Assembly: GCA_947166135.1 (NCBI GenBank)
Contig: CAMVDB010000012.1
Span: 1 to 39,291 of the forward strand
DNA length: 39,291 nt
Direction: 5' to 3'
Source of the DNA: an uncultured Clostridia bacterium
Lineage (GTDB): Bacteria > Bacillota > Clostridia > Oscillospirales > Acutalibacteraceae
Every line of letters begins with the position of its first letter. Position 1 is the first letter of the stretch. The notes below the pieces were generated by a model, which saw nothing but the letters and a program-made list of their open reading frames with translations, did not search any database and was not told the origin of the DNA. Shown here in pieces: positions 2,748-16,000 of this stretch. The translations under genes and the position numbers were made by a program.

Positions 2748-4214
2748 TTACTGATTCTTCTTATTCATGGCGAGCTTGACTACCTCGTAGGCGCCGTCGT
2801 AGAGACCCGCGATTTTGTTCGCCTTGATACGGTCGCACATGTACTTTAAGGTGTCCTCCTCCTCGAGGAAGAGCTTCACCATCTGCAAGGTGTGCGGGAT
2901 ATCCTCACACTCGAGCGTGCCGTCGCCCATCTCGGCGGAGTGGATCGCGCCCCACTTCTCATGGCCGCCGATACGCTTCAGGAACAGCTTCGGAACGGGA
3001 TAGAACGCAAGCTCTGAGGGCTTGGTCAGCAGGACGTCACAGGAGCGCATAAGGAGGTTCGTGCAGTATACCGCCTCAAAGATGTTCTCATGCCAGAAGG
3101 CGTGTACGCCCTCGACAGCGCTGTCGAGCGCCTCCTGAGCGAAGCGGTTGGTGTCGTCCCAGTCGTTGAAGTGGGTGGTGGAGAGCGCCTCGAGACCGCT
3201 GATCTCGCCGACCAGCTCATCCCATACCGCGCGGTAGTCGCCGACGTTGACATACAGCGCCGCCTTCTTCGCCTTGACGGCGGGGAGCAGATACTTGATG
3301 ACCGCGGCGAACAGCTCGCGCTGAGCACCCGCGCCGCCGATGGTCAACAGGAAGCGCATCGGTTCGCCGTTCTTCTTGCGGTTCATGCGCGCGTCGCAGT
3401 CGCGCTCGATATTCGCGACCAGCTCGTGGTCGATATAGTGTCCGGTATAGACCAGATCCCCGGCGGGCATGGGGTTGAGGATCTCTTTCTTTTTAAAGCC
3501 GTTGAGGATACGGTAGCCCATATAGCTCTGGTGGGTCTGGATAGTGTGGGTCGCGCCCTCCGCGAGGTGCAGCGCCATCGGCCAGTTATCGGGGATCGCG
3601 TTGACGACGTACTTCATCCCCGCGTGGATCGCCGCCTGAGCCGGCCATACGTGGGTACCGATCAGCGGGATATCCTTCGGGACGCTGTGGAACACCGGCG
3701 CCATCAGCTCGGCGTTCTTCTGGTCGGCGGCATTGTAGGAAAGCTGACGGAAGCCTTCGTAGTTCATCGGCTCCCATACGAGCTTGTTGAAGAGCTTGAT
3801 CTTCTGGCTCAGGCGTGAGCCGAGACTGTACAGATCGTTCTGCGCACTGATGACCTTGGTGCAGGTGGTGTCCTTGTAGGAGTTGAGGTCCATCCAGTAG
3901 GGGGTGTAGCCCAACGCGTGAGCGGCGGACGCCATGGCGATGGAGATACGGTAGTGACCGAAGCCCATACGGATGTTGCCGACGATGATGCCTTTCTCGG
4001 TATCGAAGGGGATCTCGCTCTCGCCCTCATTGACGCGGATATCCATAACGCCTAAGGGCGCATGCAGGGTCGCGTTCTCAACGACCTTAGCGGCGTAGGG
4101 CTTCTTGCTGTCGTCGCCGTATTTTTTCAGATATTTCTTTTTGCTCTGGAGCGCCTTTTTGTAGTCCTTTGCGCTCATTTGGTTGCCGAAGATGATCTTG
4201 CTTTTTTCTGCCAT
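2748..4214 (-). CDS. GT-B-like glycosyltransferase-fold protein of unknown function
   Basis: This 488-residue soluble protein has no named function that I recognise. Its layout resembles two-domain GT-B enzymes such as MurG and MGDG synthase. There is a glycine-rich acceptor-type loop GFGHYR at residues 84-89, an inter-domain segment, a second Rossmann-type start IGGAGAQ at 292-298, and a nucleotide-sugar-like LTKPSELAFYPVPK at 396-409. The first 40 residues are strongly basic (KKKYLKKYG), which could help it sit on membranes or anionic polymers. ATG 4214 follows a GAGGAGG site. It lies upstream of the GPH symporter and GH36 on the same strand, so it may share their operon. The fold is inferred from motifs only. 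Donor and acceptor are unknown. Confidence 0.6.
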   Translation of the reverse strand: MAEKSKIIFGNQMSAKDYKKALQSKKKYLKKYGDDSKKPYAAKVVENATLHAPLGVMDIRVNEGESEIPFDTEKGIIVGNIRMGFGHYRISIAMASAAHALGYTPYWMDLNSYKDTTCTKVISAQNDLYSLGSRLSQKIKLFNKLVWEPMNYEGFRQLSYNAADQKNAELMAPVFHSVPKDIPLIGTHVWPAQAAIHAGMKYVVNAIPDNWPMALHLAEGATHTIQTHQSYMGYRILNGFKKKEILNPMPAGDLVYTGHYIDHELVANIERDCDARMNRKKNGEPMRFLLTIGGAGAQRELFAAVIKYLLPAVKAKKAALYVNVGDYRAVWDELVGEISGLEALSTTHFNDWDDTNRFAQEALDSAVEGVHAFWHENIFEAVYCTNLLMRSCDVLLTKPSELAFYPVPKLFLKRIGGHEKWGAIHSAEMGDGTLECEDIPHTLQMVKLFLEEEDTLKYMCDRIKANKIAGLYDGAYEVVKLAMNKKNQ

Positions 4215-5516: not shown

Positions 5517-6089
5517 ATGTGGTTATTCGTCTTCAACTCAATATTGCTCGGCGTAGGACTGGCGATGGACGCCTTCTCGGTATCGATCGCGAACGGACTC
5601 TCCGAGCCCCGGATGCGCCCCGTGAAGAGCGCCGCCGTAGCGTGCACCTACAGCGTGTTCCAGTTCATGATGCCGATGCTCGGGTGGCTTATGGTGCGCA
5701 CGGTAGTTTCCTGGTTCGGGGTCATCGAGCGTTTCGTGCCGTATATCGCGCTGATCCTGCTCCTGTACATCGGGATCAAGATGATCGTTGACTGTCTTAG
5801 AGGCGGGGAAGAGGAGACTCGCCGCCTGACCGTGGGTGTTCTTTTGGTGCAGGGAGTGGCGACTTCGATCGACGCGTTGTCGGTAGGCTTCACCATCGCC
5901 GCATACGAGCTGCCCATGGCGCTGCTCGCCTCGCTGATCATCGGCGCCGTGACCTTCGCGATCTGTTCGGTGGGGCTGTGGATCGGCAGGCGCTTCGGCG
6001 GTATCTTCAAGCACGCCGAGGCGGTCGGCGGCGTTATCCTCATCATCATCGGAATCGAGATCTTCGTGAAAAACGTATTTTTCGGATAA
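5517..6089 (+). CDS. mntP: manganese efflux pump MntP
   Basis: This 190-residue, six-helix membrane protein is of the MntP (YebN) family, which exports Mn2+. The two internally related halves are visible. Each has an acidic membrane motif, MDAFSVSIANG at residues 17-27 and SIDALSVGFT near 117-126, as in the family. It is third in the bioY operon, with a GAGAG-type ribosome site 10 nt upstream. Many mntP genes have their own Mn-sensing yybP-ykoY leader. There is none here because the gene lies 6 bp behind its neighbour. A strong terminator follows. Confidence 0.95.
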   Translation: MWLFVFNSILLGVGLAMDAFSVSIANGLSEPRMRPVKSAAVACTYSVFQFMMPMLGWLMVRTVVSWFGVIERFVPYIALILLLYIGIKMIVDCLRGGEEETRRLTVGVLLVQGVATSIDALSVGFTIAAYELPMALLASLIIGAVTFAICSVGLWIGRRFGGIFKHAEAVGGVILIIIGIEIFVKNVFFG

Positions 6090-6120
6090 CCGTTCTGTTT
6101 ATTCAGGGCGGTTCTTTTTT
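6088..6120 (+). terminator. intrinsic terminator of the bioY-mntP unit
   Basis: A 10-bp stem with two G-U pairs (AACCGTTCTG against CAGGGCGGTT) and a 6-nt loop is followed by CTTTTTT. It begins inside the mntP stop codon. Confidence 0.85.
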
Positions 6121-6126
6121 GCCTTG

Positions 6127-6155
6127 TTGACAGCCCTGCGCCTGTGTGATAATAT
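6127..6155 (+). promoter_or_regulatory. sigma-A promoter of the surface-polymer operon
   Basis: A perfect TTGACA is followed after 17 nt by TAATAT. A better TATAAT lies 3 nt further, at an unusual 20-nt spacing, so the exact -10 box is uncertain. Confidence 0.55.
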
Positions 6156-6213
6156 AATGATGTATGACTATATCCTCTTGTCACGAACAGGATAAGGAAA
6201 GGAAATTTCAGCT

Positions 6214-6954
6214 ATGATCACTGCGATGTTATTTGCCGGCGGTAAGGGCGCGCGGATGAAGTCCGTCGACCTGCCCAAGCAGTTTTTAGAGGTCGGCGGC
6301 AAGCCGATCATCATCCACACCATGGAACACTTCGCCTATCATCCTCAGGTCGACCATATCGTCGTCGCCTGTAAGGAGGACTGGATCGATTACCTCGAGG
6401 AGCTGATCGAGAAGTTCAACGTCCCCAAGGTCAAGTCCATCGTCCCCGGCGGCGCGAACGGCTTCGATTCTATTCACAACGGTGTCGTCGCGACCCACGA
6501 GTTCTCCCGCAATCCCGAGGATCTGATCCTGATCTGCGACGGCGTGCGTCCGATGCTCTCCGAGAAGCTGATCTCCGACTGTATCAGCCACACCAAGGAG
6601 CATAAGACCGCCGTACCTGTCACCCCGTCTATCGACAGCCTGCTCTACAGCGAGGACGGCGAGACCTGCGGCAAGAGCTACCAGCGCTCAACCATGTATA
6701 TTACCCAGGCGCCGCAGGGCTACACCATGGAGCGCATTCTCTGGGCGCACGATCAGGCGTACAAGCGCGGCATCCTCAACCCAGTATCCTCCAGCGAGCT
6801 GTTCATCGAGCTGGGCGAGAAGGTACATATCTTCCTCGGCGAACGCTTCAACATCAAGGTCACGACCCCGGAGGATCTGACCGCCCTGCGTTCCCAGTAT
6901 TACTATGAGAATTATAAGAAATTTGCGAAGGAGGAACTGAAATATGGCTTATAA
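6214..6954 (+). CDS. IspD/TarI-family cytidylyltransferase (probably makes a CDP-polyol)
   Basis: This is a 246-residue nucleotidyltransferase. The CTP-binding loop AGGKGARMK at residues 8-16 with PKQF at 21-24 is typical of IspD, TarI and LicC. CDGVRP at 108-113 and KVTTPEDL near 214 complete the family pattern. The enzyme would join CTP to a sugar- or polyol-phosphate, releasing pyrophosphate. It sits 11 bp overlapping an epimerase/dehydrogenase and just before a CDP-glycerol glycerophosphotransferase, so a teichoic-acid-like role (TarI-like, CDP-ribitol or related) is more likely than isoprenoid synthesis by IspD. The ribosome site is AAGGAAAGGAAA. Family certain, substrate inferred. Confidence 0.9.
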   Translation: MITAMLFAGGKGARMKSVDLPKQFLEVGGKPIIIHTMEHFAYHPQVDHIVVACKEDWIDYLEELIEKFNVPKVKSIVPGGANGFDSIHNGVVATHEFSRNPEDLILICDGVRPMLSEKLISDCISHTKEHKTAVPVTPSIDSLLYSEDGETCGKSYQRSTMYITQAPQGYTMERILWAHDQAYKRGILNPVSSSELFIELGEKVHIFLGERFNIKVTTPEDLTALRSQYYYENYKKFAKEELKYGL

Positions 6955-8017
6955 GGTACAGGACTGCGTCAAAAAGAGCATATATACCAACCTGCTGGAT
7001 ATCGCAGAAGCCCCCATCTCATGGGACAAGCTCAGGGGCAAGACCCTGCTGCTGACCGGTGCGGGCGGCTTCATCGGCTACTATATGACCTGCGGCATCC
7101 TGCTGCGCAATGATCTCTACGGTGACAACATCAAGGTGCTGGCGCTGGAGCGTTTCGGCGACTTCGCGCGCAAGCGCTTCGGTCATCTTCTCGAGCGTGA
7201 CGACGTCGAGCTGATCGAGCAGGATATCACCGTTCCGATACAGGCGGAGCGTGCCGACTTCGTGATCCATGCCGCCTCTCAGGCGAGCAACATCGAGTTC
7301 GAGCGTGATCCCGTCGGTACCATCAGCGCGAACCTCGGCGGTACCGTCAACGCGCTGAATTACGCCAAGGACAGCGGCGCTGAGGCGGCGCTCGTCGTAT
7401 CATCCCTCAAGGTCTACGGCGCTCTGTATACGGGCAAGCCCTATATCGAGGAGGACGACACCGGCTACGTCGACTTTACCTCCTACAAGAGCTGTTATGC
7501 CGTCGGAAAGCGCGCCGCCGAGACCATCGCCGCGAGCTATATCAAGGAGTACGGCATGAACGTCCGTATCGTCCGCCCGAGCTATATTTTCGGTGCGAGC
7601 CGTCTGGATGACGACCGTGTATGGGCGCAGTTCATCGCGAATATCGTACGCGGTCAGGATATCCTCTTGAAGAGCAACGGCGCGACCAACCGCTCCTTCT
7701 GCTATGTGACCGATACCGTTACCGCTATGCTGCACGTTCTGCTCGACGGCGAGAACGGTGTGCCTTACAATATCAGTAACGAAGCCTCCAACACCACCAT
7801 CCGCGGTTTTGCGCAGGCGGCTTGCGAGGTGTTCCCCGAGCGTAATATGAAGCTCGCGTTCGCGAATCCCGAGGACGAGATCATGCCCGAGCCTTCGCCG
7901 AACGATCCGACCCCCGAGATCATGGATAACAAGCGTATCCGTTCGATCGGCTGGGAGCCGAAGGTCGACCTCAAGGAAGGCATCCGCCGCGCGGTAGCCA
8001 TTCTGGAGGAAGATTGA
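6944..8017 (+). CDS. NAD-dependent epimerase/dehydratase (extended SDR)
   Basis: This 357-residue extended short-chain dehydrogenase has the nucleotide-binding TGAGGFIG at residues 38-45. The catalytic pair is Y185 and K189 in YAVGK, with serines at 153-154. It overlaps the cytidylyltransferase by 11 bp, behind a GAAGGAGGAA site. Members next to TarI-like enzymes probably reduce or epimerise a sugar that becomes the CDP-linked polymer unit. Here it takes the position that the zinc-dependent TarJ reductase holds in ribitol clusters. The substrate cannot be read from sequence. UDP-sugar or CDP-sugar epimerase is the alternative. Confidence 0.9.
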   Translation: MAYKVQDCVKKSIYTNLLDIAEAPISWDKLRGKTLLLTGAGGFIGYYMTCGILLRNDLYGDNIKVLALERFGDFARKRFGHLLERDDVELIEQDITVPIQAERADFVIHAASQASNIEFERDPVGTISANLGGTVNALNYAKDSGAEAALVVSSLKVYGALYTGKPYIEEDDTGYVDFTSYKSCYAVGKRAAETIAASYIKEYGMNVRIVRPSYIFGASRLDDDRVWAQFIANIVRGQDILLKSNGATNRSFCYVTDTVTAMLHVLLDGENGVPYNISNEASNTTIRGFAQAACEVFPERNMKLAFANPEDEIMPEPSPNDPTPEIMDNKRIRSIGWEPKVDLKEGIRRAVAILEED

Positions 8018-8102
8018 TTTTTGCTGAACCGTTCCGACGGTTCATTCATTTGATTATCAGCGCCGCGCGGGTCAGCGATGCGGCGAATTCGGAGATGGTT
8101 GT

Positions 8103-9812
8103 GTGATTTATCTGAAGGACGCCTCATGGGAGAGGATCCACCTGACCCTGACGCTTGACCTCGGTCAATATGCGGAAAAGCCTGAATCTCTTCGCTTCTA
8201 CCTCGCTGATCTTTCGGGGAAGGTCGAATCGCAGCTTCGGTTCATCGACCGCGACGGGGCGCTTGTCCGTCTCTCTCTGAACGTGACGAACAACGGCATC
8301 GACCGCTGTGTGGAGAACGGTACCTACCGCGTCCTCGCCTTTGACGGTGCGGGCGATCCCGTCGCCGTGCTGTATGAGGGCTCGTTCGAGACGCTCTCCC
8401 GCTATGGACGGAATTTTGTCTATAACGGTTCAAAGGGCGTTTATTCCGTCAGCTTCATGGTCGATGAGTTTACCGACCTTCCCGAGCTGAGGCTGATCTT
8501 TCTGAATACAAAGAGCATACCCGCTGATGAGGGCGACATCTATCGTAAGGCGGGCTTCTCCGCAAGGCTCAAACGCTTCATCGGGAGAGCCACCGACAGG
8601 GTCAACGTCGCGTTTCAGCGGGCGGTCTATGGCTGCGTGAGGGCATTTCGATTCCTCAGAAAGCCCCACATTCTTTTCCTGTGCGAGAAGAGGGACGTCC
8701 TGTCCCCGAATATGCTGGCGGTGTACGACCGTCTGATCGAGCGCGGGATGGATAAACGCTTCAAGATCAAAACCTCCCTGCGTAACACGGAGAGCAGGAG
8801 CTATTCCAAGCTGTCTACCGCCGGTATGATCGCGAAGATCGCAAAGGCGGATATCATCCTCGTCGATGACTACGTCCCCGCTTTCAACAGCGTCAGGCTC
8901 GCCGACAGCGTCAGGGTGATCCAGCTCTGGCACGCCGGCGCCGGCTTCAAGGGCGTCGGCTACGCGAGATGGGGACACTTCGGCTGTCCCGCTCCCTACT
9001 CCGCCCACCGCCGCAATGATTTTGCGATCACCGACTCCATGGCGATCCGTGAGTTCTTTTCCGAGCCCTTCGGCTTGCTCGAGGAGCAGGTCATCCCCAC
9101 CGGTATGCCTCGTATGGATGCGTATCTTGACGAGGCTAACCGCGAGAAAATGGAGCAGGCGCTTTATGAGAGCTATCCCGACTTTAAGGGAAAGCGAGTC
9201 ATCCTCTTCGCGCCGACCTACCGCGGCCGCAACCGCAAGACGGCGTATTATCCATACGAGCTGATCGATTTTGAGGCGCTGTACCGTTATTGCGAGGATA
9301 CAGACTCCGTGGTGCTGTTCAAGATGCATCCGTGGGTACCCGGCGAGGTGGAGATCGCGCCGCGATACCGCGACCGTTTCTTCTCTATGAACGCCTATCC
9401 CAACATCAACGATCTGTTCTATATCACCGACCTCTTGATTACCGATTATTCTTCGTGTATCTATGAGTTTATGCTGATGAAGAAGCCGATGCTGTTCTTC
9501 GCCTTTGATCGGGAGCGGTATTCCGTTTCCCGCGGGTTCCACCGCGACTATGCCTCCAATATCCCCGGAAAGCTGTGTACGACCTTCGACGAGGTGCTCC
9601 GTGCGATGCGCGAGGAGGACTACGAGTTCGATAAAGTCGAGCGTATGCTTCCGCAGTATTTCGATCATGCCGATACCGGAAGCTGTGACCGCGTTATCGA
9701 CTGGCTGGTGCTCGGTGAACTTCCCAAGGAGTATGCAGACGCTTTGCAAAAGCGCCGCGAAGAAATTTCGAAGGCACGGACGCTGAAGTTCCCGCCCGTA
9801 TCTTCCGTGTAA
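8103..9812 (+). CDS. CDP-glycerol glycerophosphotransferase family protein (TagB/TagF-like)
   Basis: This 569-residue protein has an accessory N-terminal domain (about 1-190) and a GT-B polymerase domain (about 195-545). Family residues seen are QLWHAGAG with His277, APTYRG, KMHP with His409, and ITDYSS with Asp448. These enzymes transfer glycerol-phosphate or ribitol-phosphate from a CDP donor to build or prime teichoic-acid chains at the inner membrane face. It starts at GTG 8103 with GGAGATGG upstream, 85 bp after the epimerase. Together the three genes form a donor-synthesis and polymerisation unit. The family is sure. Whether the polymer is wall teichoic acid, capsule or lipid-linked is open. 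Confidence 0.93.
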   Translation: MIYLKDASWERIHLTLTLDLGQYAEKPESLRFYLADLSGKVESQLRFIDRDGALVRLSLNVTNNGIDRCVENGTYRVLAFDGAGDPVAVLYEGSFETLSRYGRNFVYNGSKGVYSVSFMVDEFTDLPELRLIFLNTKSIPADEGDIYRKAGFSARLKRFIGRATDRVNVAFQRAVYGCVRAFRFLRKPHILFLCEKRDVLSPNMLAVYDRLIERGMDKRFKIKTSLRNTESRSYSKLSTAGMIAKIAKADIILVDDYVPAFNSVRLADSVRVIQLWHAGAGFKGVGYARWGHFGCPAPYSAHRRNDFAITDSMAIREFFSEPFGLLEEQVIPTGMPRMDAYLDEANREKMEQALYESYPDFKGKRVILFAPTYRGRNRKTAYYPYELIDFEALYRYCEDTDSVVLFKMHPWVPGEVEIAPRYRDRFFSMNAYPNINDLFYITDLLITDYSSCIYEFMLMKKPMLFFAFDRERYSVSRGFHRDYASNIPGKLCTTFDEVLRAMREEDYEFDKVERMLPQYFDHADTGSCDRVIDWLVLGELPKEYADALQKRREEISKARTLKFPPVSSV

Positions 9813-9853
9813 GATCATCTGCTATTGATAAAAAGTTAACACTTTGAATTTGT

Positions 9854-9883
9854 ATAACCGCCTTGCTTTTTGCAGGCGGTTAT
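9854..9883. terminator. perfect hairpin without a U-tract, between polymer operon and dockerin gene
   Basis: ATAACCGCCT and AGGCGGTTAT form an uninterrupted 10-bp stem, extended internally by TGC/GCA. Neither strand has a T-run after it, so it may be a weak or factor-assisted terminator. Confidence 0.45.
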
Positions 9884-9997
9884 GTTAGTATTAAGGCAGC
9901 AAATATCCGCACGCTTTTTCGCCTGACCGACAACTGTTTATGTACGAAAAGCTGCGGGTTTTCTGTTATCTGTAATTTTTACCAAGGGGGAGTTAAA

Positions 9998-11161
9998 ATG
10001 AAAAGGATCCTGTCCGTGATACTATGCGTGATGCTGTTGATGACCGCTTCTGTACAGGGGTTCGCCGCGACGGTCGATATCGCTGCTTCGGGTGATGATT
10101 ATGTGTACATCAATATCTACCTGTATCCCGACTCGGAGAGTCCGATCGCCGGCGCGCAGTATAAGCGGGGTGATGTACCGACCCGTCCTGATGACCCCGG
10201 ACGTGAGAACATGGCTTTTATTGACTGGTATACATCTCCGGCGTTTACGACCCGCTTTGATTTCAGTGTACCTCTGTATGAAGATACGGCGATGTATGCG
10301 CGCTTTGTCCCGAAAGACCGGGTGATCGGCGTGAATGTGTTTGAGGGTCCCGACGCTCCGGAGCCGACCTTCGGATATCTGCTTGCAAAGGGTGATTATG
10401 CCGAGTATCAGGGTGAGCCCGACGTCCCCGACGGGATGACGTTCCTCGGCTGGTATTCCGATCGTGAGCTGACGCAGGAATTCGATTTTTCACAGCCGGT
10501 GTATGATTATGTGTGCCTGTTCCCGCGTATCGCGGCGGACGAGAATATCATCTATGGTGAACTGTACCTCTACGCTGACAGCGAGTTTCCGACCGCCGGC
10601 TTTGCTCTTGAAAAGGGCGATCTTTGTCCTGTTCCCGCCGATCCCGGCAGGGAGGACGAGGCGTTCGTCGGCTGGTATACCGACCGCGCGCTGACAGAGC
10701 CCATGGATTTTACCAAGCCCGTGTACAGCGACTTTGCGCTTTTCCCGAAATTTGAGAAGATCCATCACCATGATCTGGTGATGGTGGATATCATTCGGGC
10801 TACCGATACACGCGACGGCTGCAAGGCGCACCTGGAATGTACGACCTGCGGCAAGTGGTTCGAGCCCATCTACACCGCGCTGGTCGAGATCGAGGATCAC
10901 GATTCACTGATTGTCCCCGCGAGAGGTCCCTATCTGCTCGGCGATGTGGACGGTGACGGTGAGGTGGATATTACCGATGTGACGAAGCTGCAGCGCTATC
11001 TCAGCAAGATCAAGCTCAGCGGAGGCTTCTGCCGCGGAGCGGCTGATGTGGATGAAGACGAGGAGATATCTGCTATTGACAGTGTCTTTATCCAGCGCTA
11101 CAACGCTTTGATACATACGCCGTATGCTATCGGAGAGCCGGTAGTTCCGTCGATTAAGTAA
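9998..11161 (+). CDS. secreted protein with three InlB-type B-repeats and a C-terminal type I dockerin
   Basis: This 387-residue protein starts at ATG 9998 behind AAGGGGGAG. An earlier in-frame ATG at 9863 has no ribosome site. Residues 1-24 are a signal peptide (cleavage after GFAA). Three repeats of about 70 residues follow (roughly 36-103, 108-178, 185-252), each with a G/DWY core such as FLGWYSDRELTQEFDF, typical of Listeria-Bacteroides repeats. A CTTCGKWF motif lies at 281-288. Residues 313-372 are a type I dockerin with two Ca-binding loops, DVDGDGEVDITD and the more acidic DVDEDEEISAID. Dockerins dock onto cohesins of cellulosome-like scaffolds, so this is probably an extracellular or wall-attached adhesion part. 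No enzyme domain is present. Confidence 0.9.
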   Translation: MKRILSVILCVMLLMTASVQGFAATVDIAASGDDYVYINIYLYPDSESPIAGAQYKRGDVPTRPDDPGRENMAFIDWYTSPAFTTRFDFSVPLYEDTAMYARFVPKDRVIGVNVFEGPDAPEPTFGYLLAKGDYAEYQGEPDVPDGMTFLGWYSDRELTQEFDFSQPVYDYVCLFPRIAADENIIYGELYLYADSEFPTAGFALEKGDLCPVPADPGREDEAFVGWYTDRALTEPMDFTKPVYSDFALFPKFEKIHHHDLVMVDIIRATDTRDGCKAHLECTTCGKWFEPIYTALVEIEDHDSLIVPARGPYLLGDVDGDGEVDITDVTKLQRYLSKIKLSGGFCRGAADVDEDEEISAIDSVFIQRYNALIHTPYAIGEPVVPSIK

Positions 11162-11176
11162 GCATAGATCAAAATA

Positions 11177-11213
11177 AAAAAGCACTTCTGACCGAAATCA
11201 GAAGTGCTTTTTT
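11177..11213. terminator. bidirectional terminator between dockerin gene and SDR gene
   Basis: An 11-bp perfect stem (AGCACTTCTGA/TCAGAAGTGCT) has A-rich sequence before and TTTTTT after, so it can stop transcripts from both converging genes. Confidence 0.92.
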
Positions 11214-11271
11214 GACGTCGTTGTGCGGGAAAATTGTATGGTTAGCCCGCGAAGATCAATATAATAGATCG

Positions 11272-12069
11272 TTATTTAGAGTAGATCAGGCCGACGAGGT
11301 AGTTGCTCAGACGGCGGGGGAGGAGCTTTGTGAGGATCGAGATCGCCTTGTAGCTGATCCCGATTGCCTTCATGGGACGGGTACGCTTCTTCATCGCGAG
11401 CTTCGCGATGTAAGCTCCCGCCTTGTCGGGGCTCATGCCGCCGCGCTCGTCCTTTTCCATCGTTGCGACCGATCTTTCGATCCGCCCGCTGTAGATATCG
11501 TTGCCGCTGTCGGACTTCTTCCTCGCGTCGGTAAAGCCGGTGGCGATATCCCCGGGCATCACCGCGCACACGCTGATCCCGTAGGGGCGAACCTCATTCT
11601 GCAGGGCAAGCACATAGGCGTTGATCGCCGCCTTACTCACGCTGTACCACAGTTGGAAGGGGATCGGCAGGATACCCGCGATCGAGCTGACGCTGACGAT
11701 CCGACCGCTTTTCCTCTCACGCATATAAGGGAGGATCGCACGGGTGACGTTGTCCATGCCGTAAAGGTTCAGCTCCAGCTGTGCGTGTGAATCGGCGCTG
11801 TCGGTCATCTCGGCGGCTCCCGAGATGCCGTAGCCCGCGTTGTTGACGAGGATATCGATCTTCCCCTCGCGGGAGATGACCTCGTCGATCGCTTTTTTTA
11901 CCTGCTGTTCATCGGTGATGTCGGCGGCCAGGTGGCTGACGCCCTCGGGCGGGTTATCCCTGCGGGAGAGCTCGTACACGGTACAGCCCTTTGCGGCGAG
12001 CGCCCGAGCGGTCGCTCTGCCGATGCCGCTGCTGCCGCCTGTTACGACGGCGATTCTATGATCGTTCAT
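11272..12069 (-). CDS. SDR-family NAD(P)-dependent oxidoreductase; candidate 3-ketosphinganine-type reductase
   Basis: This 265-residue classical short-chain dehydrogenase has the cofactor motif TGGSSGIG at residues 10-17, NNAG at 76-79, and the catalytic Ser129, Tyr142 and Lys146. Its ATG overlaps the TAA of the alpha-oxoamine synthase by one base (TAATG), so the two are translated together. An alpha-oxoamine synthase makes an amino-ketone and the SDR is well placed to reduce that ketone. This is the logic of serine palmitoyltransferase followed by 3-dehydrosphinganine reductase. The family is certain. The specific substrate is inferred entirely from the partner. A general short-chain alcohol dehydrogenase is possible. 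Confidence 0.88.
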   Translation of the reverse strand: MNDHRIAVVTGGSSGIGRATARALAAKGCTVYELSRRDNPPEGVSHLAADITDEQQVKKAIDEVISREGKIDILVNNAGYGISGAAEMTDSADSHAQLELNLYGMDNVTRAILPYMRERKSGRIVSVSSIAGILPIPFQLWYSVSKAAINAYVLALQNEVRPYGISVCAVMPGDIATGFTDARKKSDSGNDIYSGRIERSVATMEKDERGGMSPDKAGAYIAKLAMKKRTRPMKAIGISYKAISILTKLLPRRLSNYLVGLIYSK

Positions 12070-13241
12070 TACTTTTCAAGCAGAACCTTGGCGATGATCG
12101 AGACTGCCTCGTCGATGAGGTCCTCGGTCAGGGTCGCCATGTAGCTGGTGCGCAGGAGACACTCGTTCGGTGCGGTCGCGGGGGGCAGAACGGGATTGAC
12201 GTAAACGCCCGCCTCGTAGACCTCCTTCGCCTTGCGCAGGGTATTCTCCATCGAGTAGGTGTAGATCGGTACGATCGGGGTGTTGCTCTCGCGGATCTTC
12301 AAGCCTGCCTTGCGCAGACCGTCTCTTGCGTGGGCGGAGAGGGCATTCAGCTTTTCGGGCAACTCGGGATGCGCCTTGAGGTGTTTTAATGCTGTCAACG
12401 CGACCGCACAGCATGCGGGCGGCATGGATGCCGAGAAGATGAACGGGCGGGAGTTGTGGCGCACATAATCGCATACCTTGTGCGAAGCCGCCATATAGCC
12501 GCCTAAGGAGGCGAGAGACTTCGAGAAGGTGCCCATGATGATGTCGACCTTATCCTCGAGATCGAAGTAGCTCGCGGTACCTCTGCCGCCTTCACCGATC
12601 ACGCCTAAGCCGTGCGCGTCGTCGACCATGACTCTCGCGCCGTATTTCTCAGCAAGCTTGCAGATCTCGGGGAGCTTGGCGATATCGCCGCCCATCGAGA
12701 ATACGCCGTCGGTAACGATCAGGATGCCGGCTGTCTCGGGTATCTTTTGCAGGATCCTTTCGAGATCCGCCATATCGTTGTGCTTGTAGCGCTCCATCTT
12801 GCCGTAGCTCAGCTTACAGCCGTCGTAGATAGAGGCGTGGTTCTCTCGGTCGCATACGACGTAGTCGCCTCTGCCGACGATGGCGCTGATAATGCCAAGG
12901 TTACTCTGGAAGCCGGTCGAGAAGGTGACCGCCTCGTCCATGTGGACGAACTCGGCGAGCTCCTGCTCGAGCTCCAGATGCATGCGCAAGGTACCGTTGA
13001 GGAAGCGTGAGCCCGAGCAGCCGGAGCCGTACTGCTCCAGCGCCTTGATGCCCGCTTCTACGACAGAGGGCTCAGTGGTCAGTCCGAGGTAGTTGTTGGA
13101 GCCCAGCATGATGCGGCGCTTACCCTCCATGATGACCTCTACGTCCTGACGGGTCTCCAGCGCGTGAAAGTAGGGGTAGATCCCCATCCGGCGAAACTCA
13201 TCAGCCAGCGTGAAGCGTTCACACTTTTCAAAAATATCCAT
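12069..13241 (-). CDS. PLP-dependent alpha-oxoamine synthase, serine palmitoyltransferase-like
   Basis: This 390-residue enzyme of the BioF/KBL/HemA/SPT family condenses an amino acid with an acyl thioester. It retains NNYLGL at 49-54, GSGCSGSRFLNG at 72-83, His135, the PLP-binding VDDAHGLG at 206-213, and the Schiff-base Lys241 in GTFSKSLASLGG. The C-terminal half, with FIFSASMPPA, NTPIVPIY and GVYVNPVLPPA, reads from memory more like Bacteroidota serine palmitoyltransferases than KBL or BioF. Its partners are an SDR ketoreductase (1-base overlap) and a divergent acyl-ACP thioesterase, supporting a long-chain acyl substrate. The ribosome site is GAGGGAAG. Alternatives are glycine C-acetyltransferase, BioF, or a cysteate acyltransferase of sulfonolipid synthesis. 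Confidence 0.88.
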   Translation of the reverse strand: MDIFEKCERFTLADEFRRMGIYPYFHALETRQDVEVIMEGKRRIMLGSNNYLGLTTEPSVVEAGIKALEQYGSGCSGSRFLNGTLRMHLELEQELAEFVHMDEAVTFSTGFQSNLGIISAIVGRGDYVVCDRENHASIYDGCKLSYGKMERYKHNDMADLERILQKIPETAGILIVTDGVFSMGGDIAKLPEICKLAEKYGARVMVDDAHGLGVIGEGGRGTASYFDLEDKVDIIMGTFSKSLASLGGYMAASHKVCDYVRHNSRPFIFSASMPPACCAVALTALKHLKAHPELPEKLNALSAHARDGLRKAGLKIRESNTPIVPIYTYSMENTLRKAKEVYEAGVYVNPVLPPATAPNECLLRTSYMATLTEDLIDEAVSIIAKVLLEK

Positions 13242-13298
13242 TTAACTTCCCTCATTTTCTTTGGTTTGGGGTTTGTGCAGAAAAATATACCGCAGAAT

Positions 13299-13327
13299 AT
13301 TTTACATGATAATTCGCTATGTGTCAA
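13299..13327 (-). promoter_or_regulatory. sigma-A promoter of the alpha-oxoamine synthase/SDR operon
   Basis: On the minus strand a perfect TTGACA is 17 nt from TAAAAT, giving a leader of about 50 nt. Confidence 0.82.
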
Positions 13328-13346
13328 GAAAAACGCGGTTTTATCA

Positions 13347-13375
13347 TTGATTATGAGCAAAAAACGTGTTAAAAT
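13347..13375 (+). promoter_or_regulatory. sigma-A promoter of the acyl-ACP thioesterase
   Basis: TTGATT is 17 nt from TAAAAT. Its -35 box lies only 19 bp from the -35 box of the opposite promoter, so one regulator could control both directions. Confidence 0.77.
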
Positions 13376-13396
13376 AATCACAAAAGGAGGGGTATT

Positions 13397-14113
13397 ATGA
13401 AACTGATTAAGGAGGCGGTCGTACCCGCCAGTATTTGTGATTCCAACGTGAAATTAGCCGTCAAGGGCACCTTCGACCTGGTGCAGGACTATCTGACCGA
13501 GATGATGGGCGAGCTGCATATCGACGGCGTGACCCTTCGCCGTGAGTACGGCTGTGTGTGGATCTTCACCCGCAACCGCGTCGAGATCGACCGCGAGCTC
13601 GACTGGATGGAGTCGTATACCGCCGAGAGCTATATCTCCTCTGCCAAGGGTGCGAAGATGACCGTCGATACCGTATTAAAGGACAAAACGGGCGCGATCT
13701 GCGTCTATTCTCGTATCGAGATGTGCGCGCTCGACCTTAAGACCCAGCGTATCCGCCGTATCCGTGACGTCGGCATCACCTCGGATACCCATGTCGAGTC
13801 TCCCGAGCGGGAGATCGCATTCAGCCGCCTGAAGCACGAGGGACTTACCGATCTCGAGACCCGCGTCGTCAAGTCGGGCGATATCGACTTTGTCCAGCAT
13901 ACCAACAACGTGTCCTACGTCCGATTCATCATGGATACCTATTCGGTCGCCGCGCTGCGTGAGCGTCCCGTCAGAACCATCGAGGTGCGATACGCGGGAC
14001 AGACCCACGAGGGCGATATCCTCACGATCCGTAAGGCGCAGCAGGACGGACGGGAGCTCTTTGACGTCGTTCTGGGCGATACCGTCGCCGTGGAATGTGA
14101 GATTACCCGCTGA
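13397..14113 (+). CDS. acyl-ACP thioesterase (double hot-dog)
   Basis: This 238-residue protein of the bacterial FatA/FatB-like family releases free fatty acids from acyl carrier protein. The two hot-dog halves are about 1-135 and 145-238. The catalytic region lies in the second half: Asp164, His168, Asn170 and Asn171 in DIDFVQHTNNVSYV. ATG 13397 is preceded by AAAGGAGG at ideal spacing. It is divergent from the alpha-oxoamine synthase/SDR pair across a 155-bp shared promoter region. It could supply or recycle acyl groups for that pathway, or tune membrane fatty acids independently. Family assignment is firm. The link to the neighbours is inference. Confidence 0.92.
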   Translation: MKLIKEAVVPASICDSNVKLAVKGTFDLVQDYLTEMMGELHIDGVTLRREYGCVWIFTRNRVEIDRELDWMESYTAESYISSAKGAKMTVDTVLKDKTGAICVYSRIEMCALDLKTQRIRRIRDVGITSDTHVESPEREIAFSRLKHEGLTDLETRVVKSGDIDFVQHTNNVSYVRFIMDTYSVAALRERPVRTIEVRYAGQTHEGDILTIRKAQQDGRELFDVVLGDTVAVECEITR

Positions 14114-14133
14114 ATGGATATGTGATTCAGCGC

Positions 14134-14171
14134 AAATAAAAACACCCGCTTTCACGCGGGTGTTTTTATTT
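14134..14171. terminator. bidirectional terminator between thioesterase and ybeY-like gene
   Basis: A 16-bp perfect inverted repeat with a CACCCGC/GCGGGTG core is flanked by A5 and T5 runs, so it works on both strands. Confidence 0.92.
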
Positions 14172-14174
14172 CAG

Positions 14175-14642
14175 CTAAAAGCCGCTGTAATCGGCAAGCG
14201 GGGGAAATCCCATCTGACCCATTACTGCCGCTTCTCCCATCATTTGCGCGTCCTTTGCTTTCTGGTCGGTATAGTAATGACCGAGCAGATTGAACACGCC
14301 GTGGACAGAAGCGTAAACCATGCCCATTTCAAACGGACGATCATAGACCTTAGTGAGCTCTAAAACACGTTCTATCGAGATGATGAGCTCTCCCAAGCTC
14401 TCTTCTCCGTCCTGCGACGGAATCGCGATAACCTCAGGCGCCTCAAAGTTACTTGCGCGTTGTGCGCTGTGGGCGTTGAGGATTTCGTTATCCGCAAAAA
14501 CGACGGAGATCGTAGTCTGTTTGTCATACAGCTTATGCAACAGAGCGGCATGACAACTGCGTCTGACGAGCATTCGGGTACCCGAAGGGATCTTAATTTT
14601 CGACTGGTTGTTGTCGATGATAACCTTAAGATTACTTGCCAT
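14175..14642 (-). CDS. ybeY: YbeY-family protein with degenerate metal-binding site
   Basis: This 155-residue protein lines up along its length with YbeY, the metal-dependent endoribonuclease of 16S rRNA 3'-end maturation and ribosome quality control. Family features kept are the LGELIIS strand near 83-89, Arg62, and the helix SVHGVFNLLG. The catalytic motif H-G-x-x-H-x-x-G-Y-D-H is broken: His114 is kept, the second His is Asn118 and the third is Tyr124. The upstream TDVLSFP motif is also changed to APEVIAIP. It therefore probably cannot bind zinc in the usual way. It has its own promoter and GGGAGG site. It may be a non-catalytic paralogue, with a canonical YbeY elsewhere. Confidence 0.8.
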   Translation of the reverse strand: MASNLKVIIDNNQSKIKIPSGTRMLVRRSCHAALLHKLYDKQTTISVVFADNEILNAHSAQRASNFEAPEVIAIPSQDGEESLGELIISIERVLELTKVYDRPFEMGMVYASVHGVFNLLGHYYTDQKAKDAQMMGEAAVMGQMGFPPLADYSGF

Positions 14643-14672
14643 GTTATCGCCTCCCTTGCTTGTGTGTCGTTT

Positions 14673-14701
14673 ATTGTAACATAGAAAAAGAGTTTTGTAA
14701 A
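14673..14701 (-). promoter_or_regulatory. sigma-A promoter of the ybeY-like gene
   Basis: On the minus strand TTTACA is 17 nt from TACAAT, with a leader of about 25 nt to ATG 14642. Confidence 0.65.
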
Positions 14702-14863
14702 CATTAAACGAAACAGAAAAGCAAAATTTGGCGAAAACTTACATAATTTTCATGCGTTTTTAGATAAATTAACGTCGAAAAAACGCCGTTTTTTCCCATT
14801 AATAAGCCATTTATCGCGTATGCATATGTATTAACGTACCCCGTTTACGAAATTTTCTGGGTA

Positions 14864-15020
14864 TTGTTAATATTTTCTATATTAGTTTATTATCTGTTTT
14901 ATGTAATATGCACCTGTCGAAATGTCGCATAACCACACCACATAAAGCAAGTTTTCAGATGATCGCGTTTTATGTGTCTTGCTATGAAAAAAACCTGCCG
15001 TTTTTGTTGGCAGGTTTTTG
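14864..15020 (+). ncRNA. candidate intergenic small RNA with own promoter and terminator
   Basis: A promoter-like TTGTTA and TATTAT (14864-14893, 18-nt spacer) points into about 120 nt without a convincing coding frame, ending in a strong hairpin with T-run. Inside, CACATAAA (14939-14946) can pair with TTTATGTG (14969-14976), and GCAAG just after the first arm can pair with CTTGC just after the second, giving two competing structures. No gene lies downstream on this strand, so it would be a stand-alone RNA. This is inference. The AT-rich promoter could be chance and the terminator may serve only degV. Confidence 0.3.
14985..15020. terminator. terminator downstream of degV (works on both strands)
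   Basis: AAAAACCTGCC and GGCAGGTTTTT form an 11-bp stem with T-runs on both strands. It follows the degV stop on the minus strand. Confidence 0.88.
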
Positions 15021-15082
15021 GATTCATAATAAAGAGACGTTTAGATCAGCCGGAGGTCTCGTGTTTTGGATTATGTATCGTT

Positions 15083-15940
15083 TTATTTCGTCATGAAGAA
15101 CAGGGCGAAGGTGCCCGGTCCGCAGTGGGAGGTGATGACGCAGCCTGCGGTTGAGACGATGATCTCATCGCAGTCAATCAGCTTCTTGAGCTCCTTCTTA
15201 TAGTACTTGCGATCCTTTTCGCTGATATCGCAGGTCATATGCAGGATGATACGTCGCGTATCAATGACGTCCTTGTATTCGTCGAGCCGTTCCTTGAGGT
15301 ATTTCAGACGGCATGCCTCATCCTTGCCGCGGTACTTCTTCGCGACGGTCATCGCGCCGTCGTTGATGACGATGGTGGGCTTGATATTCAGCAGATTCGC
15401 ACCCAGCAGCGATACGCTCGAGCAGCGGCCGCCCTTGTGGAGGAATTCCAGCTGGCTCAGCAGGAAGCTGCCGACGTTCTTCTCGATCAGGTCGCTGACG
15501 AGATCACAGATGCGGTTCGGCTTGAAGCCCATCTCACGGAACTCACACGCTCGGATCGCCAGCAGCGTCATACCGCTCGACAGCACGCGGCTGTCGATCA
15601 CGTGTACTTTGCCGCCGAATTCCTGTGAGGCGATCACAGCGTTCTGGTAGGTAGAGGACATATCGGAACAGAACGCGATATGGATGATCTCCTCAAAGCC
15701 CTCGTCAAATATCTCCTTGAAAAAGTTCAGATAGCCGTCGGGCGTTACCGCGGAGGTCGAGGGCAGCTCGCCGCGCTCCTTGTAGCGGTTGAGGATATCC
15801 TCGGGGGTGATGTCGACGCCGTCCGCGTAGTCCTCGTCGTTATACAGTACGTGCAGCGGAGCAATGCGGATATCATATTTTTCAGCGACAGAAGCGGGCA
15901 TATCCGCCGTGCTGTCGGTGGTGATCATCAGTTTAACCAT
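15083..15940 (-). CDS. DegV family fatty-acid-binding protein
   Basis: This 285-residue cytoplasmic DegV protein binds a fatty acid between two alpha/beta domains. In Firmicutes such proteins (FakB) present fatty acids to the kinase FakA for phosphorylation and phospholipid synthesis. The N-terminal TTDSTADMP at 7-15, the SGT-like SSTYQNAV, the DSR of VHVIDSRVLSSG and FLHKGGR follow the family. I chose ATG 15940. In-frame GTG codons at 15949 and 15955 are possible starts, since the ribosome site is weak (AAAGTGAG). It has its own promoter and terminator. No fakA is in the window. It could use fatty acids released by the nearby thioesterase, which is speculative. Confidence 0.92.
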   Translation of the reverse strand: MVKLMITTDSTADMPASVAEKYDIRIAPLHVLYNDEDYADGVDITPEDILNRYKERGELPSTSAVTPDGYLNFFKEIFDEGFEEIIHIAFCSDMSSTYQNAVIASQEFGGKVHVIDSRVLSSGMTLLAIRACEFREMGFKPNRICDLVSDLIEKNVGSFLLSQLEFLHKGGRCSSVSLLGANLLNIKPTIVINDGAMTVAKKYRGKDEACRLKYLKERLDEYKDVIDTRRIILHMTCDISEKDRKYYKKELKKLIDCDEIIVSTAGCVITSHCGPGTFALFFMTK

Positions 15941-15971
15941 CTTTTTCACACTCACTTTCTTTATCACGGTG

Positions 15972-16000
15972 ATTTTACCACGACGGCTATGGCTTGTCAA
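15972..16000 (-). promoter_or_regulatory. sigma-A promoter of degV
   Basis: On the minus strand TTGACA is exactly 17 nt from TAAAAT, about 30 nt before the start codon. Confidence 0.82.

Follow-up and report, generated by a model that had tools for sequence, protein, structure and literature searches.

Sphingolipids are lipids familiar above all from animals, fungi and some Gram-negative bacteria. The present analysis concerns two adjacent genes of an uncultured Clostridia bacterium, a Gram-positive with relatives in rumen and gut (assembly GCA_947166135.1, contig CAMVDB010000012.1), encoding an alpha-oxoamine synthase (AOS) and a classical short-chain dehydrogenase/reductase (SDR), which we regard as probably a serine palmitoyltransferase (SPT)-type synthase and a ketosphinganine reductase that would make sphinganine, conserved across Clostridia. 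The window, i.e., the whole stretch of DNA analysed, is one complete contig of 39,291 bases from a genome of 2.04 Mb that is split into 95 contigs and is 93% complete. The locus comprises the following features, where ACP stands for acyl carrier protein:

11176-11213, minus strand: terminator-like 17-pair stem-loop with a T-run, 3' of the SDR gene
11272-12069, minus strand: classical SDR, 3-ketosphinganine-reductase-like, 265 aa (open reading frame; Pfam adh_short)
12069-13241, minus strand: SPT-like AOS, 390 aa (open reading frame; Pfam Aminotran_1_2)
13299-13327, minus strand: promoter-like site of the AOS-SDR unit, TTGACA-17-TAAAAT, 11/12 consensus matches
13347-13375, plus strand: promoter-like site of the thioesterase gene, TTGATT-17-TAAAAT, 9/12 consensus matches
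13397-14113, plus strand: acyl-ACP thioesterase, 238 aa (Pfam Acyl-ACP_TE N- and C-terminal domains)

The arrangement described in an earlier, sequence-only reading of this DNA is borne out in every detail: base 12069 is common to the AOS stop codon TAA and the SDR start codon ATG (TAATG), the thioesterase gene is divergent, and the two -35 boxes are separated by 19 bp (13328-13346). Promoter-like sites in the scanned region number 5 vs 2.0 ± 1.6 in shuffled sequence, and terminator-like sites 3 vs 2.4 ± 1.5. Across ten relatives, some of them very close to one another, the AOS-direction site TTGACA-17-TARAAT is kept in nine, the tenth (locus L054) displaying only a 9-of-12 site; because the site recurs despite AOS-thioesterase intergenic lengths that vary from 144 to 232 bp, the putative AOS promoter is probably real. 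The thioesterase-direction site is present in nine of the same ten loci and missing from locus L047. The closest named relative found is the metagenome-assembled genome (MAG) of uncultured Ruminococcus sp. RUG13059, in which RUG presumably refers to the rumen, with a collinear locus and an AOS 98% identical to that of the window.

Judged by profiles, solved structures and phylogeny, the AOS is SPT-like over its whole length, is neither KBL (glycine C-acetyltransferase), BioF (8-amino-7-oxononanoate synthase) nor ALAS, and is far from the cysteate enzyme. The NCBIfam scores comprise SPT-CFB (NF047600) at 523.6 bits, SPT-BetaP at 397, KBL at 378.7, BioF at 373 and ALAS at 250.8. Among solved structures, the Sphingobacterium SPT (PDB code 3a2b) ranks highest with 406 bits, aligned over residues 4-387, 384 residues without a gap, followed by the Sphingomonas-type SPT (294 bits), KBL (256), a dual BioF/KBL enzyme (242), the cysteate-C-fatty acyltransferase (225) and BioF (up to 195). 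The SPT likeness that the sequence-only reading ascribed to the C-terminal half is thus present, although it spans the entire protein.

The main tree, comprising 61 rows of which several reference rows are long-branched so that its deepest joins are unsure, places the AOS inside a 28-row Clostridia clade (support 100/99), two rows of which are labelled as Izemoplasmatales and Paludibacteraceae MAGs. This clade is sister to Bacteroidota SPT (support 96/90), within a larger group that holds SPT-like proteins of Nitrospirota, Planctomycetota and Zixibacteria, and KBL, BioF and ALAS/HemA lie across a 97/95 split from the SPT group; no cysteate acyltransferase sequence is among the rows. A quick second tree, from which five long-branch references were removed and to which Caldicoprobacter was added, retains the Clostridial clade (SH-aLRT 99). 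The trees put the AOS with SPT; the clustering with KBL or BioF that would have refuted the sequence-only reading is not seen. The residues tell the same story: in 11 of 12 diagnostic columns, whose letter is shared by 15 or all 16 of the SPT-clade proteins compared from other phyla and by none of eight KBL/BioF/HemA proteins, the AOS carries the SPT letter, including A244-S245 just after the lysine that binds pyridoxal 5'-phosphate (PLP). This PLP lysine, K241, is accompanied by H135, D207, H210 and R364, positions that we take to be catalytic (H, D, H, K, R) from the numbering of the Sphingobacterium enzyme; all five are common to the 16 SPT-clade, 27 Clostridial and 8 KBL/BioF/HemA proteins and one alphaproteobacterial protein. 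As a separate observation, the AOS of locus L192 (3001-4164 of NZ_OL790696.1) groups with an alphaproteobacterial SPT-like protein of Roseomonas; the record itself is a 4.8 Mb E. coli entry filed as a plasmid, with no gene listed in 3001-4164.

The SDR displays the two hallmarks of the classical type, (i) the cofactor motif TGGSSGIG at position 10 and (ii) the catalytic YSVSK (YxxxK) at position 142. At the top of its 228 NCBIfam matches stands KdsR, 3-ketodihydrosphingosine reductase (NF049977), with 240.6 bits, the next match reaching 211.6, and KdsR is also the first match for the partner SDRs of the distant loci L071, L084 and L089 (223-288 bits). Three Bacteroidales genomes yield top KdsR matches of only 124.6, 90.5 and 83 bits, which makes orthology between the Clostridial SDR and BT_0972, the Bacteroides reductase, improbable.

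The AOS and the SDR form a conserved module across Clostridia. The SDR gene adjoins the AOS gene in 39 of 57 Clostridial-clade loci, lying directly downstream in 31, where -1 to 64 bp separate the aligned ends, and in divergent orientation in eight, one of them about 1 kb away. A class-wide check, for which 12 loci were fetched and two found to repeat loci of the 57, left ten further cases; an SDR adjoins in seven of these (two downstream, one upstream, four divergent) and is not adjacent in three, one of which has only about 360 bp of upstream sequence. Of 200 genomes sampled from the family, 11, the window's own included, have an SPT orthologue (at least 54% identity); four more AOS at 36-38% identity fall with KBL or BioF or in an unresolved position. 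Close SDR relatives (at least 44% identity, 220 bits, a threshold set after seeing the list) accompany 10 of the 11 SPT-positive vs 10 of the 189 SPT-negative genomes (Fisher 9e-11), and counting by genus, which only partly removes kinship, gives 7/8 vs 8/127 (4e-7). In genome G001 both SPT and SDR are present, on separate contigs.

The 20 proteins scanned from genes flanking the AOS in other Clostridia are mostly unrelated to one another, comprising MarR, transporters, a phosphorylase, GtrA, XdhC, DUF3810, Usp, cytidylate kinase and others. An apparent 755-aa AOS fusion in locus L094 was dismissed, since the reading frame simply stays open ahead of the probable start codon. Locus L089 (6502-10010), from the Paludibacteraceae-labelled MAG, displays the run HAD hydrolase - PlsC-type acyltransferase - AOS - SDR, which may hint at acylation further along the pathway.

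The SPT-like proteins are widely, if unevenly, spread. In a survey of 391 genomes of the class, where the call required at least 455 bits to NF047600 and part of the positives lie outside the tree, 49 genomes across 17 family codes carry one; none attains the NF047600 cut-off of 640 bits, the best score being 596.7. Among 14 control genomes searched at the same E-value limit, Bacteroides ihuae is the single positive. Caldicoprobacter guelmensis and C. faecalis carry members of the Clostridial clade, that of C. guelmensis being annotated as 8-amino-7-oxononanoate synthase. The clade members in the MAGs of L089 (Paludibacteraceae) and L078 (Izemoplasmatales) may reflect either transfer or misbinning.

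The divergent thioesterase, by comparison, was rejected as a third module member, being kept only in a narrow clade of close relatives. It lies beside the AOS gene in 10 of 12 loci that have the window's wider gene order and enough upstream DNA, the exceptions being L053 and L055, and it is missing from loci L059 and L061-L064, even though their AOS are 84-85% identical to that of the window. At E<=1e-25, a thioesterase match is found in one of the 200 family genomes, namely the window's own, and in none of the ten remaining SPT-positive genomes among the 200. Flanking these genes are (i) a protein carrying Listeria-Bacteroides repeats and, at its C terminus, a type I dockerin (9863-11161, plus strand), downstream of and convergent with the AOS-SDR pair, and (ii) a YbeY-like protein (14175-14642, minus strand; Pfam 54.7 bits, TIGR00043 34.5 bits against a cut-off of 45). 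The usual metal-binding motif of the latter reads HGVFNLLGHYYTD; two of the three motif histidines seem lost relative to what we take to be the consensus, and the protein is possibly a degenerate paralogue.

Conversion of a long-chain base into a ceramide requires N-acylation, and a gene for a GNAT-like protein of about 370 aa and/or an epimerase-like protein of about 325 aa adjoins SPT in loci of Zixibacteria, Nitrospirota and Planctomycetota; these are likely bCerS and CerR, since they fit the description in the accessible text of PMC11334938. The whole-genome search for a ceramide-synthase-like acyltransferase that the sequence-only reading had proposed yielded a candidate, although not a clear tie to SPT. 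The candidate, a 374-aa tandem-GNAT homologue of the SPT-adjacent GNAT-like genes, lies on another contig of the window's genome (G000:C25:6743-7867), in a gene run in which it overlaps both the preceding FakB gene and the following PlsX gene, FakA being 178 bp upstream of FakB:

Locus L159 (G000:C25), 5742-10588: FakA - FakB/DegV - tandem GNAT - PlsX

A profile search recovers the tandem GNAT at full length in 27 of 41 SPT-positive genomes. In the family sample it occurs in 3/11 SPT-positive vs 9/189 SPT-negative genomes (p 0.02), or by genus in 2/8 vs 8/127 (p 0.11), and FakB-GNAT-PlsX-like operons also occur in SPT-negative relatives. Because the association with SPT is not clear and similar operons exist without SPT, the tandem GNAT is a candidate ceramide synthase only. 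For CerR, a search confined to the window, leaving aside the rest of the genome, returned nothing better than E 0.03. Acyl-CoA (coenzyme A) is a possible donor in view of nine AMP-binding matches in the same genome. Two AMP-binding matches of this genome lie at G000:C20:8879-12898, in open frames of 1983 aa that are probably one gene resembling a nonribosomal peptide synthetase.

From the gene structure, phylogenetic place, active-site residues and conserved pairing observed here, we infer substrates, products and a lipid as follows. The AOS would act as a Clostridial SPT-type enzyme, binding L-serine, its presumed substrate, through the PLP on K241 and condensing it with a long-chain acyl thioester of CoA or ACP, with release of CO2, to give 3-ketosphinganine. 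The SDR would then reduce the ketone to sphinganine with a nicotinamide cofactor, presumably NADPH in view of the basic residues SRR after its second strand. The later steps, N-acylation to dihydroceramide and addition of a head group, if they exist, would be encoded elsewhere. A bolder proposal, advanced tentatively and in our judgement unlikely as a whole, is that about one-eighth of the genomes of the class, among them those of Ruminococcus-like species from the rumen and of Caldicoprobacter, direct the synthesis of true sphingolipids in a eukaryote-like order, in which SPT and the coupled reductase would deliver sphinganine and the tandem GNAT would acylate it as a ceramide synthase, with acyl groups supplied via the neighbouring FakA-FakB/PlsX acyl-phosphate system.

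Several observations weigh against sphinganine synthesis by the pair. Both proteins score below the NCBI naming cut-offs, the AOS with 523.6 bits against 640 for NF047600, which keeps it out of the CFB-type SPT family, and the SDR with 240.6 bits against 400 for KdsR. Most SPT-clade reference proteins of other phyla are unassayed, and we found no assay of any Clostridial-clade enzyme, nor lipid data. Regarding the pairing, 12 of the 57 loci have enough flank and yet no SDR beside the AOS, a further six being cut, and the eight divergent SDRs are only 30-40% identical to that of the window. The SDR threshold of the co-occurrence count is post hoc, and at 150 bits the counts become 11/11 vs 23/189. 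Moreover, SDR relatives of 44-58% identity exist in 10 SPT-negative genomes, and in the six of these that were scanned the neighbours of the SDR relative include no sphingolipid genes, so that the SDR family also occurs outside the pathway. SPT is also patchy: G185, of the same genus and rated 100% complete, is without it and without a close SDR relative at the threshold used. Finally, no dedicated ceramide synthase is established, the only candidate being the tandem GNAT, which does not clearly track SPT. In two SPT-negative relatives (loci L253, 2313-3323, and L256, 694-1482), the close SDR homologue is found beside a gene for an Rce1-like CAAX protease.

The amino acid is not fixed by the sequence, the five catalytic residues being common to SPT-clade, Clostridial and KBL/BioF/HemA proteins, and alanine is usable by Spt according to the accessible text of PMC11334938. 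An SPT-fold enzyme that takes alanine, glycine or another small amino acid, leading to 1-deoxy or otherwise modified sphingoid bases, is nevertheless decidedly unlikely, given that the top-scoring solved structures are serine enzymes and that the SPT-diagnostic columns, A244-S245 included, are retained. The Gram-positive long-chain base route of the sequence-only reading is supported as regards the SPT-type synthase and the ketosphinganine-reductase-type SDR, on the evidence of tree, profiles, columns and pairing; its sulfonolipid option is disfavoured. A cysteate acyltransferase followed by a 3-ketocapnine reductase, leading to a sulfonolipid (capnine) base, would perform an identical type of reaction, and reductase-like homologues were counted in Firmicutes and Firmicutes_A by the loose search reported in the available part of PMC11211663. 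Against this, the solved cysteate enzyme falls below both Sphingobacterium SPT and KBL in the structure comparison, and the six scanned window proteins (9863-16000), to which the search was limited, the rest of the genome lying outside it, include no cysteate synthase, which leaves this option very improbable.

A housekeeping role is conceivable for the only clear AOS found in a 93%-complete genome, and databases name some clade members 8-amino-7-oxononanoate synthase; the AOS could accordingly be an ordinary glycine C-acetyltransferase or BioF beside an unrelated SDR. The tree position and the profile scores speak against this, no tdh or bio gene occurs among the same six window proteins, and the conserved coupling to a KdsR-like SDR argues in the same direction, making it extremely improbable. 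The remaining alternative differs from membrane sphingolipid synthesis only in the later steps, the long-chain amino alcohol being turned into a small secreted or signalling product. It would suit the patchy distribution and the lack of an established ceramide synthase, but occurrence in 49 of 391 genomes and 17 family codes is no less compatible with a basic lipid, and we judge this alternative unlikely, if conceivable.

Sphingolipids of the gut are mostly credited to Bacteroidota, and so are their effects on host immunity and metabolism. Should Clostridia of rumen and gut produce sphingoid bases, one would have to rethink where these lipids come from, which chain types they have and at what loads they occur; named carriers such as the Caldicoprobacter species make the claim directly testable, and the SPT-SDR pairing gives the ketone-reduction step a concrete Gram-positive gene. 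Annotation hides these Clostridial genes, all members in the class sample scoring below the cut-off and some being labelled 8-amino-7-oxononanoate synthase. Among the matches listed in a literature search of titles and abstracts, with most subscription journals outside its coverage, none reports Clostridial sphingolipid synthesis. According to PMC11334938, MAGs of 38 phyla contain Spt-like proteins; the main text of that study mentions neither Firmicutes nor Bacillota, nor any word beginning with Clostridi-.

Compared with known systems, the window AOS is closest to Bacteroidota and Sphingobacterium SPT, sharing the catalytic and most diagnostic residues and 49-55% identity with the Bacteroidota and other SPT-clade proteins compared, but the Clostridial enzymes form a clade of their own below the 640-bit cut-off. 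The gene order also differs: the three sphingolipid genes of Bacteroidota are not close together, as stated in the accessible part of PMC11334938, whereas the Clostridial SPT gene often lies beside that of the SDR. BT_0972 of Bacteroides thetaiotaomicron, shown to be a 3-ketosphinganine reductase in the available text of PMC9278070, and KdsR share with the window SDR the classical type, the YxxxK signature and the glycine-rich motif; the distance to BT_0972 was judged through the best KdsR scores of Bacteroidales genomes, the BT_0972 sequence itself standing outside the comparison. The Caulobacter-type Spt - bCerS - CerR pathway shares the type of the first enzyme, but acylation precedes reduction there, according to the accessible sections of PMC11087976, and here the bCerS-like gene lies on another contig than the AOS-SDR pair. 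The cysteate acyltransferase/3-ketocapnine reductase system follows the same logic of an AOS plus an SDR; the window synthase is much nearer to SPT than to the cysteate enzyme of known structure, and the reductase genes are not adjacent to cfat in that system, as far as the available part of PMC11211663 goes. KBL-Tdh and BioF have the fold and the PLP chemistry in common with the AOS, but fall outside the SPT clade with 31-37% identity. Since a published statement, in its accessible form, already suggests that smaller Gram-positive groups may make sphingolipids, the Clostridial pair represents a clearly delimited branch, so far without a name, of a kind of enzyme already known, together with its reductase partner, and not a new kind of system.

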